A stretch of 64,000 nucleotides of DNA, from positions 5,449,501 to 5,513,500 of the forward strand of contig NC_090288.1 in assembly GCF_037392515.1 (NCBI RefSeq). The letters run 5' to 3'. Of the stretch, positions 26,647-32,600 are shown piece after piece (position 1 is the first letter of the stretch; the number at the start of each line of letters is the position of its first letter). This DNA comes from Haliotis asinina (lineage: Eukaryota > Mollusca > Gastropoda > Lepetellida > Haliotidae). The notes under the pieces are model-generated. The model did not search any database and was not told the DNA's origin. It saw only the letters and a program-made list of their open reading frames with translations. A program made the position numbers and the translations under genes.

Positions 26647-29600
26647 ATTTGTCTTCATGGCAACTGGTGACAGCGAGACGCGCAGAAAACGTGTCACAAC
26701 AAGTTTGTCGCCAATTACATGCAGTGAGAGAAAATACTTCACCTTGAAGCAAGTAGCCTAGAAAAAAACATTATATTACATCTGCAAGAGTTAACCTGCC
26801 GGAGTAAAGACAGTATACACTGACAACTGGATCTGACTCTAATTGCAGACGGTATCGAAAAGTTAGTACCCAGAGGACAGTCATAGAAACACTGAAACCT
26901 GATTGTCAAAGATTCAAAAGGCAAGACTTATATCTGTAGAAAATTTCTCATTATGTATCAAATCAAATAACCAGTTTTTGTGTTTTTTACTTTTGCGCAA
27001 GTAGTATAGGGAATGGCGAGAAAAACCGGTAGCGGGTACACTTTGCTCAGAAGCTTCGGAGTATAGCTAATTCTGCTACCAGCATATATATTCAACAAGA
27101 CCCTTTCGATAAGACCACTTTTAGGCTGCTTCCAATTACTCCCAATTATAGTGTATTCCCAATTAGAGCTATGCGGGTACATAGACATAGAAATATGCCA
27201 GGAACCAAGCTCTCGCGAGAAGCATATACCGAGATCCGATCGGGTCGTTTGTCCATTCGGGAAGCGAAGAGGAAGTATCACATATCGCAAGCTCGATACA
27301 CACGAATCCGAGGTGGTATAGGCAAGCCCACAACTCCCGATATATCCGAAGAATTGGAGGCCCTACTGCAGAAGTGTCGCCCCATGTTGCTTTCCGACCG
27401 AGAGAAACAAATCCTAGAGCAATCGGGACACACCTTCTACGAACACTACCAGATCCCCAAACAGTTTCTCGAACTCTACTTGCTGTGCTTTCGTCCACTA
27501 GTAGAAGCCGGCAAAATAGTTGATTTCGTCTACATCTACCCACCCAACCAATTTCGACCCTCGGCAGGCAAACTCCGAATCATTCTCGCTGATAACTGCT
27601 ATCCGGGCCCCAAGGACAGACACAACCGATGCACCGACTGCCTAGCCACTCTATCGGAACTGCCTGCTCTCTTCGGACCCGACAACTCTACGTGCAAGTG
27701 TGGTGCCACCGACCACTGCGTCGACAGCAAGAAATGTATTCTCTGGGAACAGAAAGTGATAGACTACACACCCCAGGAGCGACTTCCACTCGAGGTTCCA
27801 GAAGAGATCGAGGTTGGCAGCTGTTGTGTGAATATAGAGAACCTATACGACAACGCCTGCCTTTTCTGGAGCATAAAATACGCACTCCTCATCAACAAAT
27901 TGATGGACCGTTGTACGTGTAAGGAGAAAGAGTCTTGTATCTTATGGCGGTTATCGGAGAAAGCAGAGGTACCACAGGGGCGGGGTAATATTTGGCATAC
28001 CCCATTACCCGACTATGGTGGACCCAAGCATATGGAAGTAGCACCCCCTCCATACAGCGAACACAAAAAAGCTGCGAACGTCCCAGAAGGAGTCTACTTA
28101 TGCAAAAAGTTTGCTGTAGCGGGACACGAAGGGAAGAACCGGCTGTTATTGCTACTCGATCCCCCGACTGGGGAAACGATTCCAGTCTATGGCTACAAGA
28201 TACGAGAAACGATTCGGGCTGCCGGGGGAATAGAACGCCTACGGTTAGTGCGGGAACCGTTTCTATGCAAGCTCGGTAAAATCTGCTACTCACCTATATC
28301 AGAAAAGAAAGACGATAGAGAAATCGAATTACTGCTTCCAGACATTGGACGAGAATAGGTCCGGCAGCTCACCTAGTATTTTGGTAGATGCAGTCGTGGG
28401 CTTACAAAGGACGAATACTTATCTAGGCTAGTTTTTCGTATTCCAACTGCTTTTCGTGGTACCCTACTACTTTTTTCCCCTCAAAAAACAACACTCTACT
28501 GCATAATGAAGGGATCCCCACGTTTCGTCTTGGATGTTTCTACCTTCTCGGTCGGTGTGTGCACTGATTTGCTGTGCTTCCAGGTCTTGTAGACGACCTT
28601 CCAGAGAAAAACAGCGGCTAGCGAAAGGTAGGTCCACCTTTGGGCTGTTTCTAGTATCTGCCGCACCTTCTGGATATCCAGATGGGTCTCTTCTTGTTCC
28701 TCCTCAACGTTTTCTATTTCCTCTTCCTCATTGTCCTTATCCAGCATCGACAAGATGTCGACCAACAAATTCGTGGTTTGCTCCATATGAGCCGGCAACG
28801 TATTCGTGGTTTGTTCCAAACGAGCCGACATCGCTGCAGTTTGCTTCACACTAGCCTCTAGCCTCCCCAAGCGGTTGTAGAAGTCCTGGATGGTGGACAC
28901 AGTCGGCTCTGCAGCAGGCAATACGCTCTCGCTAGGGGGTAAGATGGCCGCAGGCAATACGCTGCCGGCAGACGTCTCACTAGCGGGAGCAGGCAATGCG
29001 TCTGTGCTGGTCGGAGGTTCTACAGCAGGCTCTCGCCATATGTCGTAGAGTCTTGTGGATCCAATACCGAAGCGCTTTTTGACCTCGCTTGCTGGGAGCA
29101 CCCCTCGAAGGGAGCGTATTTCTTGGACCTTTTCCGAAGACAAATCTCTTCTTGGTGGCATGGGGTGTTTTTCCTGGGAATATATATATATACCATACTT
29201 CCTACTTGTCTATATAGGAACCAATCCTCTCCCAGGAAACTTCTAATAATGCTTAGCAATGCTTAGTAATGCTTAGTAATGCTTAGCAAATGCTTAGTAT
29301 TATTAAGCATTTGCTAAGCATTACTAAGCATTACTAAGCATTGCTAAGCATTATTAGAAGTTTCCTGGGAGAGGATTGGTTCCTATATAGACAAGTAGGA
29401 AGTATGGTATATATATATATTCCCAGGAAAAACACCCCATGCCACCAAGAAGAGATTTGTCTTCGGAAAAGGTCCAAGAAATACGCTCCCTTCGAGGGGT
29501 GCTCCCAGCAAGCGAGGTCAAAAAGCGCTTCGGTATTGGATCCACAAGACTCTACGACATATGGCGAGAGCCTGCTGTAGAACCTCCGACCAGCACAGAC

Positions 29601-32600
29601 GCATTGCCTGCTCCCGCTAGTGAGACGTCTGCCGGCAGCGTATTGCCTGCGGCCATCTTACCCCCTAGCGAGAGCGTATTGCCTGCTGCAGAGCCGACTG
29701 TGTCCACCATCCAGGACTTCTACAACCGCTTGGGGAGGCTAGAGGCTAGTGTGAAGCAAACTGCAGCGATGTCGGCTCGTTTGGAACAAACCACGAATAC
29801 GTTGCCGGCTCATATGGAGCAAACCACGAATTTGTTGGTCGACATCTTGTCGATGCTGGATAAGGACAATGAGGAAGAGGAAATAGAAAACGTTGAGGAG
29901 GAACAAGAAGAGACCCATCTGGATATCCAGAAGGTGCGGCAGATACTAGAAACAGCCCAAAGGTGGACCTACCTTTCGCTAGCCGCTGTTTTTCTCTGGA
30001 AGGTCGTCTACAAGACCTGGAAGCACAGCAAATCAGTGCACACACCGACCGAGAAGGTAGAAACATCCAAGACGAAACGTGGGGATCCCTTCATTATGCA
30101 GTAGAGTGTTGTTTTTTGAGGGGAAAAAAGTAGTAGGGTACCACGAAAAGCAGTTGGAATACGAAAAACTAGCCTAGATAAGTATTCGTCCTTTGTAAGC
30201 CCACGACTGCATCTACCAAAATACTAGGTGAGCTGCCGGACCTATTCTCGTCCAATGTCTGGAAGCAGTAATTCGATTTCTCTATCGTCTTTCTTTTCTG
30301 ATATAGGTGAGTAGCAGATTTTACCGAGCTTGCATAGAAACGGTTCCCGCACTAACCGTAGGCGTTCTATTCCCCCGGCAGCCCGAATCGTTTCTCGTAT
30401 CTTGTAGCCATAGACTGGAATCGTTTCCCCAGTCGGGGGATCGAGTAGCAATAACAGCCGGTTCTTCCCTTCGTGTCCCGCTACAGCAAACTTTTTGCAT
30501 AAGTAGACTCCTTCTGGGACGTTCGCAGCTTTTTTGTGTTCGCTGTATGGAGGGGGTGCTACTTCCATATGCTTGGGTCCACCATAGTCGGGTAATGGGG
30601 TATGCCAAATATTACCCCGCCCCTGTGGTACCTCTGCTTTCTCCGATAACCGCCATAAGATACAAGACTCTTTCTCCTTACACGTACAACGGTCCATCAA
30701 TTTGTTGATGAGGAGTGCGTATTTTATGCTCCAGAAAAGGCAGGCGTTGTCGTATAGGTTCTCTATATTCACACAACAGCTGCCAACCTCGATCTCTTCT
30801 GGAACCTCGAGTGGAAGTCGCTCCTGGGGTGTGTAGTCTATCACTTTCTGTTCCCAGAGAATACATTTCTTGCTGTCGACGCAGTGGTCGGTGGCACCAC
30901 ACTTGCACGTAGAGTTGTCGGGTCCGAAGAGAGCAGGCAGTTCCGATAGAGTGGCTAGGCAGTCGGTGCATCGGTTGTGTCTGTCCTTGGGGCCCGGATA
31001 GCAGTTATCAGCGAGAATGATTCGGAGTTTGCCTGCCGAGGGTCGAAATTGGTTGGGTGGGTAGATGTAGACGAAATCAACTATTTTGCCGGCTTCTACT
31101 AGTGGACGAAAGCACAGCAAGTAGAGTTCGAGAAACTGTTTGGGGATCTGGTAGTGTTCGTAGAAGGTGTGTCCCGATTGCTCTAGGATTTGTTTCTCTC
31201 GGTCGGAAAGCAACATGGGGCGACACTTCTGCAGTAGGGCCTCCAATTCTTCGGATATATCGGGAGTTGTGGGCTTGCCTATACCACCTCGGATTCGTGT
31301 GTATCGAGCTTGCGATATGTGATACTTCCTCTTCGCTTCCCGAATGGACAAACGACCCGATCGGATCTCGGTATATGCTTCTCGCGAGAGCTTGGTTCCT
31401 GGCATATTTCTATGTCTATGTACCCGCATAGCTCTAATTGGGAATACACTATAATTGGGAGTAATTGGAAGCAGCCTAAAAGTGGTCTTATCGAAAGGGT
31501 CTTGTTGAATATATATGCTGGTAGCAGAATTAGCTATACTCCGAAGCTTCTGAGCAAAGTGTACCCGCTACCGGTTTTTCTCGCCATTCCCTATACTACT
31601 GCGCACTTACTTTCGCTTGGCGGTGTATTTTAGACAGACGTTGGAGCTGGGCTGCCCCGTTATACAGAGGTGATCTATAAATAATCAAGTCAGTCCAGTG
31701 ATGAATACCATGAGCATCGATCTACGCATTTGGGATACGATGGCATGTGTCAGATAATCTGACCACCCCAGTCAGTTAGTCGCCAGGTATTGCTAACCCG
31801 GATCTCTCCGGGTATTGGCTTAAGGACCTCGGCGTCACTTTGGCATTACACAATCATTTGGTAGGACCTGAATTTAGTTTAATGTTCCAGTTGTGAGCTG
31901 TAGAGACAGTGTGACCTTAAAGTGTGATTACTGCAGAAGGGGAAACCAGTGATTGCCACTTTGGTGGTATCCACGCACGACTATAGGTTTGTCGCTAACA
32001 GACCACGAAACATATTGTGGGAGCCGAACCTACAATCAGAGGAGGATCACCGCACAGCTAAGGGGCGCAACCTTCAACGGGGATTACAGCACTTAAGACC
32101 ATGGGTGTCAGCAGTAATCAAATGTTAAACATGGTAACAATAAAATGCGACACATATGAAGCTGTTGACACTATAGTATTACCATCAGTAGTAACACATG
32201 ACCTCGCAGCACACAGCTTTCCTAAATGAATCACAAAAGGCGCCTGTTGTCCCAGAGGCCTTAGTAATTCTCCCGGCTGTCACTGCCAAGATGAACTTGT
32301 GAACAGGTCGCCCAAACCACGCCATCTGCATTATTCAGAAGCTCACAAATATGTCTGTGTATTCATGCCCAGTTAAGACAAAGCCGACGTGTGTGATCTG
32401 ATTGTAATACCAGTCGACGTCGGATGGACCAAATCATGTTTATATGCATTGAATAGGGTATGCATCGTGAAACCTTCCCGAGATATGGACAGGGTTTGTT
32501 GTGATGTAAGTGACGATATCGCTCTTTGGCTATTTTCCTATGGAAAATTTATACAGTAGTTCCTATATTAGGAACAATAATGAGTGACTAGATATTATAT

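Follow-up and report, generated by a model that had tools for sequence, protein, structure and literature searches.

A palindrome with two duplicated genes

The window analysed here is a stretch of 64,000 nucleotides from the genome of Haliotis asinina (C9:5449501-5513500; genome 1.14 Gb), in which a palindrome of 4.6 kb spans positions 27000-31600. Comparison of arm with arm showed that mirrored coordinates total 58600, as an initial annotation made from the letters of this DNA had reported, and that every base in the span pairs with its counterpart save for one position, 29297/29303; pairing is lost immediately outside 27000 and 31600. The same annotation had put a single mismatch at the axis: there is indeed one mispaired position only, and its place is beside the axis base, 29300, these being the only asymmetric bases of the axis region (29297-29303). 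An inverted repeat of 2.3 kb at such identity cannot be the product of chance, and the palindrome is real.

Each arm is 2,300 bp long (left, 27000-29299, forward strand; right, 29301-31600, reverse strand). The left arm begins with the 16-base terminus AGTAGTATAGGGAATG (27000-27015, forward strand), which is identical to the termini of Polintons in the same genome, and the right arm ends with its reverse complement (31585-31600, reverse strand); directly outside the two ends stand identical copies of the five bases GCGCA (26995-26999 and 31601-31605), a target-site duplication. Within each arm, one open reading frame (ORF1) reads inwards and another (ORF2) reads outwards from the axis. ORF1 encodes 395 amino acids (aa), or 387 aa from its second methionine, and lies at 27171-28358 on the forward strand and, in its second copy, at 30242-31429 on the reverse strand; ORF2 encodes 221 aa and lies at 28496-29161 on the reverse strand and at 29439-30104 on the forward strand (ORF list, with domain models for the left-arm copies). 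The paired proteins are identical, in agreement with the initial annotation. A repeat search of the sequence detected an array of the decamer AATGCTTAGY running up to the axis (29248-29298, forward strand), with its mirror copy at 29302-29352 on the reverse strand.

Most copies of the element retain both reading frames open, and ORF1 is intact in 24/24 copies, with a pN/pS of 0.44. Because its relatives P0001 and P0003 begin at the counterpart of Met9, the true length of the ORF1 protein may be 387 aa. Protein searches recovered five relatives of ORF1 and eight of ORF2, and an ORF1 profile recovered 11, five of which had already been found; searches of viral contigs gave 33 and 75 pattern matches and no relative at threshold. 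Neither protein has an accepted match, to a known transposon or virus family or otherwise, in Pfam, NCBIfam, PHROGs or the PDB sequences. The earlier failure to recognise a transposase, polymerase or Rep is borne out by the profile searches (Pfam, NCBIfam and PHROGs), which gave no match to a polymerase for ORFs of just 395 and 221 aa, none to an rve integrase in either ORF by profile search only, none to a capsid or an A32/FtsK-type ATPase, with the middle of ORF1 lacking a confident model, and none to an HUH Rep, SF3 helicase or NS1, for which profiles only and no other motif search were used. When ORF1 was compared with pieces of the local Polintons by tblastn, the best match (E 0.012 over 33 aa) was not accepted as a relationship.

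The structure models are poor, with a mean predicted local distance difference test score (pLDDT) of 53.3 for ORF1 and 65.5 for ORF2. The ORF1 model has N-terminal helices resembling a helix-turn-helix (HTH), a cysteine-rich middle and a weakly oligonucleotide-binding (OB)-like C-terminal domain, and the ORF2 model has an N-terminal HTH, long helices that look by eye like a coiled coil, and a hydrophobic stretch resembling a transmembrane segment. No Foldseek match to either model, the OB-like C-terminus of ORF1 included, passed E 0.001; the AB5-type and other Foldseek rows indicate a shared fold only and are uninformative on function.

Copies elsewhere in the genome

A search of the genome with the arm DNA gave 81 matches, mostly as inverted pairs of 97-100% identity. 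With the ORF1 protein we found at least 44 loci at 97% identity or more, and the ORF2 protein search added three loci; the locus listings for the arm, ORF1 and ORF2 are lower bounds, with loci counted by reading of the tables. The copies are near-identical and dispersed. The element is mobile, as had been proposed, and the palindrome proved to be the rule rather than an accident, with at least part of both arms retained at 43 of the 44 ORF1 loci and a single arm at one (L018). Older or partial relatives, about 44-76% identical and many of them with stop codons, are dispersed genome-wide. One such old copy, L043, also consists of two inverted arms, which are 98% alike over their longest matching stretch (1,361 columns) and about 70% like the window arm, and for this reason the palindromic form looks old in the lineage.

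The two arms of a copy are far more alike than are different copies. Arm-versus-arm comparison of the first 2,170 bp in 24 complete palindromes gave 17 mismatches in 52,080 sites, and none at all in 14/24; divergence between copies averages 1.07%, with a minimum of 0.32%. This comparison was made without the copies that have truncated, deleted or nested arms (L010, L012, L018, L021, L025, L033, L034, L038 and L039), and also without the multiple copy L040 and without L044. Divergence between arms being so far below that between copies, a single template probably served for both arms at each transposition. Near the axis, L032, L037 and L041 have mirrored length changes; the axis region is partly asymmetric in L013, L016, L022, L027, L034 and L036; and damage to one arm was not repaired from the other in L010, L012, L021 and L033.

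The single-armed L018 ends at an axis sequence similar to the terminus (AGTATTATT vs AGTAGTATA), and may represent an insertion of one arm that ended at the axis. Its candidate 5-bp duplication, AATAC, is ambiguous, as two of the bases also fit the element, and can be called suggestive.

Two further loci have unusual arrangements. L040 (C4:29291318-29301212) contains a palindrome and, after it, two additional arms head to tail, with each terminus abutting an axis sequence, and looks like a concatemer. L037 (C1:88.24 Mb) and L038 (C1:87.96 Mb) have common flanks and are either a segmental duplication or an assembly duplicate.

Features held in common with Polintons

The 16-mer AGTAGTATAGGGAATG occurs at 939+927 sites in the genome, whereas the reversed control has 1+0. 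The first 100 sites of the listing contain 46 adjacent opposed pairs, of which 38 are 12.4-16.4 kb apart and two are 4.6 kb apart, the remainder comprising three of about 140 bp and three at 11.3, 20.4 and 22.2 kb. Polinton-sized pairs thus account for 76 of those 100 sites, which, scaled to 1,866 sites, gives an estimate of about 700 elements. A longer, 30-base version of the palindrome terminus has 57 sites at 29 loci; 28 of these loci have a pair, and L018 has one site.

One of the larger elements interrupts a palindrome, L039. This nested element (C4:24291414-24305874) is 14,461 bp long, has the same outer 16 bases as the palindrome, is bounded by identical terminal repeats of 319 bp and a separate 5-bp duplication, ACCCC, and encodes an RVE integrase (PF00665, E 7.4e-11) and an A32-type ATPase (E 7.5e-9); its capsid match is weak and below the cut-off (Capsid_N, E 0.007). 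Its 1,228-aa ORF matches Rho_N and endonuclease VII, and gave no PF03175 match in the profile search; by eye it has motifs such as YTDTDS, which we take to be those of a family-B polymerase. Two pairs of this 16-bp terminus enclose matches to DNA_pol_B_2, at C1:5564665 and C1:5732915, regions that, because of their equal spacing, are probably duplicates of one another. Integrase matches inside terminus pairs were found at C1:425831, C1:1561099, C1:9652042 and C1:12735920, and there are at least 150 integrase copies at 97% identity or more, all but one of those listed being without stops. Judged by sequence, the elements of about 14.3 kb that share the terminus are a Polinton/Maverick family.

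Some observations on this family stand apart. It is very large and young (C1:412337-426933 and many other loci), with about 700 GGGAATG-ended elements by the above estimate and several hundred pairs' worth of TACAATG termini. The integrase frame of the nested element (L045:478-1203) is 241 aa long (245 stop to stop) and looks damaged, because nearly all other listed copies have open frames of 326 aa. On contigs C35 and C44, the open frames that contain PF03175 matches run to 68,161 and 24,853 codons and are less likely to be genes than masked or unusual sequence.

The palindromes have three terminus variants, each of which also occurs at Polinton-sized elements, with just one such case for CACAATG. 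Among the copies examined, CACAATG ends are carried by L023, L025, L027, L029, L032, L040, L041 and L044, and TACAATG ends by L036 alone. The CACAATG terminus has 86 sites, all of them listed; nine pairs are palindromes by coordinates, most other sites are isolated, and one pair is 13.4 kb apart, with ends that resemble Polinton terminal inverted repeats by eye, the identification resting on ends, not genes. The TACAATG terminus has 726 sites, and most of those listed form pairs of about 14 kb, likewise identified by ends, not genes; 8/9 tested pairs carry the Polinton array described below. Sites of AGTAGTATANNNAATG number 3,263, compared with 92 for the control, and 2,678/3,263 belong to the three variants; other variants exist, some of them as Polinton-sized pairs.

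A target-site duplication was found at all 33 palindromes tested, out of 35 young-family loci (L018 and L039 are not in the count). It is 5 bp long in 30/33 and 6 bp in 2/33, and in the remaining one, L044, it comes to 5 bp if one end is taken to include an additional AGT; L037 and L038, with their common flanks, are not independent. The outer flanks of L039 are both AATCT. In Polinton-sized elements the duplication is 5 bp in 9/10 and 6 bp in 1/10. The palindrome hence has both its terminal sequence and the length of its target duplication in common with a Polinton of the same genome. The initial annotation had recognised no matching class; the ends of the element, being those of that Polinton/Maverick family, connect it to one.

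The third common feature is the central array. In 23 palindromes, GCTTAGC repeats with a 10-bp period gave 118 matches within 150 bp of the axis and none elsewhere in those copies; the array is also present in the nested Polinton, directly upstream of a 230-aa ORF, and an array search did not detect it in the old palindrome L043. In its palindrome version, two tandem units of AATGCTTAGY, the array has 188 sites, and of the 100 listed, all but C6:5482992 are, by reading, at palindrome axes. The sequence TTTGCTTAGCTTTGCTTAGC has 1,666+1,558 genome sites (control, 0). Within the listed portion of C1 it is present in 31/34 Polinton-sized pairs, at a distance from the nearer end equal to 46-50% of their length; because these Polintons are close relatives, the shared position counts as one or two observations. 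Of 100 listed TTTGCTTAGCTTTGCTTAGC matches, 26 are outside any listed pair. The array of one arm folds no better than shuffled sequences.

Within the nested Polinton, a TTTGCTTAGC array with the 10-bp period lies at L045:7080-7130, in this same 46-50% interval, and a promoter, a packaging site or a site where forks meet are candidate roles.

Interpretation, known systems and miniature elements

Taken together, these results suggest that the palindrome is a gene-bearing, dependent satellite of a Polinton/Maverick family that is active or was recently active in this genome, an interpretation to which we assign a probability of roughly 0.75. It is based on the terminus in its three variants, the duplication length and the central decamer array, all common to both elements, and on the lack of any recognised integrase or polymerase gene in the palindrome. 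The initial annotation had inferred an undescribed mobile or virus-like element: mobility and palindromic form stand, and dependent satellite is a better description than unconnected element.

Under this model, integration borrowed from the Polintons is well supported, and there is a strong case that the RVE integrase of the helper would insert the palindrome by joining its ends to the target in trans. With moderate confidence, we further propose that a protein-primed PolB of the helper would start copying at the (AGT)2 ends and that fold-back at the axis would remake the second arm. Protein priming is suggested by the short repeats at the palindrome ends, (AGT)2 and, at one end of L044, (AGT)3, because such repeats serve sliding or jumping-back in protein-primed systems; the adenovirus end 3'-GTAGTA has this function (PMC4974454). 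The additional AGT at one end only of L044 is what slippage would leave, and so fits protein priming.

Fold-back is possible because each strand of the element can pair with itself: a displaced or nascent strand would fold at the axis, and the first arm would then serve as template for the second. A displaced single strand could fold into a single long hairpin, whose duplex end would be of the helper type and able to enter the next round; alternatively, a nascent strand could turn back at the repetitive axis and copy its own arm. Both routes would require just one helper terminus; fold-back would provide both sides with that end and leave the arms of a copy alike, at once by the second route and via mismatch repair in the hairpin by the first. 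A precedent from a different virus exists in the snapback genomes of adeno-associated virus (AAV; PMC8235507). Occasional use of the axis as an end would fit L018. As for the two proteins, they might conceivably bind the DNA of the element (termini, axis array or single strands) and aid it in the helper cycle.

Gene conversion acts between palindrome arms, and the element could be a non-autonomous Polinton derivative whose arms are alike mainly owing to conversion after insertion rather than fold-back at replication. The same low arm divergence would be expected, and we consider this unlikely but worth serious attention. However, damage to one arm in L010, L012, L021 and L033 was left unrepaired from the other arm, the arms of the old L043 are 98% alike in their longest stretch rather than identical (and about 70% like the window arm), and L018 possibly arose by insertion of one arm that stopped at the axis.

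Alternatively, the palindrome could be an autonomous transposon of a new class, with ORF1 or ORF2 acting as a recombinase that has escaped recognition and generates the 5-bp duplications, and with Polinton-like ends that are borrowed or convergent. This view would agree with the open state of both ORFs in most copies and with the HTH-like helices at the start of both, as in transposases such as IstA. Nevertheless, it appears rather improbable: the 16-bp terminus in three variants, the duplication length and the common array would need separate causes, and the profile searches recognised no catalytic domain.

Rolling-hairpin replication typically yields head-to-head dimers joined at the hairpin, and the snapback genomes of AAV are self-complementary (PMC8235507), which could point to an integrated linear virus with hairpin ends, akin to parvoviruses and seen as its dimeric replicative form. 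This explanation is disfavoured and very improbable given the Polinton-type termini with target duplications and the lack of a Rep, NS1 or capsid profile match. Finally, although fold-back reads can create false palindromes, a local assembly fold-back, or a library artefact that mirrored one arm, is so unlikely as to be scarcely credible, because similar palindromes occur at more than 40 other sites and the element ends at a 5- or 6-bp target duplication in 33/33 tested loci (32 independent sites), and the copies show deletions confined to one arm and rearranged axes.

The dependent satellite inferred here resembles several known systems in part. Its 16-bp end, target duplication and central array are those of the local Polintons, whereas it is 4.6 kb long vs about 14.3 kb, wholly palindromic, and carries two unrelated genes in duplicate with no integrase, polymerase, ATPase or capsid recognised; with neither integrase nor polymerase recognised, it apparently fails as a full Polinton member. 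Vertebrate Mavericks are reported to have the (AGT)2//(ACT)2 terminus that is found here, and 6-bp duplications (PMC8097293), in contrast to the mostly 5-bp ones of the palindrome. Transpovirons and virophages have transcriptional control elements in common with their partners (PMC11464507) and are, as the palindrome appears to be, small DNA elements dependent on a larger virus-like partner; the palindrome, however, resides in an animal genome, would have a Polinton as its partner, is a full palindrome without a capsid match, and its mobilisation is inferred.

Foldback elements and miniature inverted-repeat transposable elements are non-autonomous DNA transposons with long inverted repeats and target duplications that depend, as the palindrome presumably does, on an enzyme supplied in trans; unlike them, the palindrome has two conserved open genes, an inverted repeat that covers the whole element and a putative Polinton partner. 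In copy-back defective genomes, one parental end is duplicated in inverted orientation and the genome is self-complementary. AAV snapback subgenomes have the same organisation (PMC8235507). All these forms are deletion by-products of a parent virus, whereas the palindrome lineage carries genes that were not found in the helper pieces searched and that are kept open.

No satellite of animal Polintons is described in the open-access literature searched, subscription papers and Repbase being outside the search, so that an earlier description is possible. If the interpretation is correct, animal Polintons have parasites of their own, as giant viruses do, and a palindrome of the whole genome made by fold-back is a replication trick; to our knowledge, such palindromes are otherwise known only from defective viral genomes. 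The element would also offer a handle on protein priming by animal Polintons in living cells, each renewal of the palindrome on moving being a footprint of copying. Tentatively, at somewhat short of an even chance, it might represent a new subviral class in animals, namely satellites of Polinton viruses that encode proteins and are obligately palindromic. Such an element would have acquired one viral terminus only, would need no other because snap-back copies it to both sides, and would track the terminus types of the helper as subfamilies change, with DNA-binding proteins of its own that compete for or steer the helper machinery, perhaps including packaging in helper particles.

Miniature elements with related ends were also detected. 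L067 (C1:5577426-5577568; 143 bp) consists of 34 bases of Polinton end and a decamer core in 62-bp exact inverted arms. It and L068 (C1:5890392-5890530; 139 bp) are mini-palindromes with Polinton ends and a decamer core that adjoin Polinton ends and have no target duplication, and they are probably copies within a duplicated region. Equally without a target duplication, L069-L072 measure 78-108 bp and have CACAATG ends that face each other.

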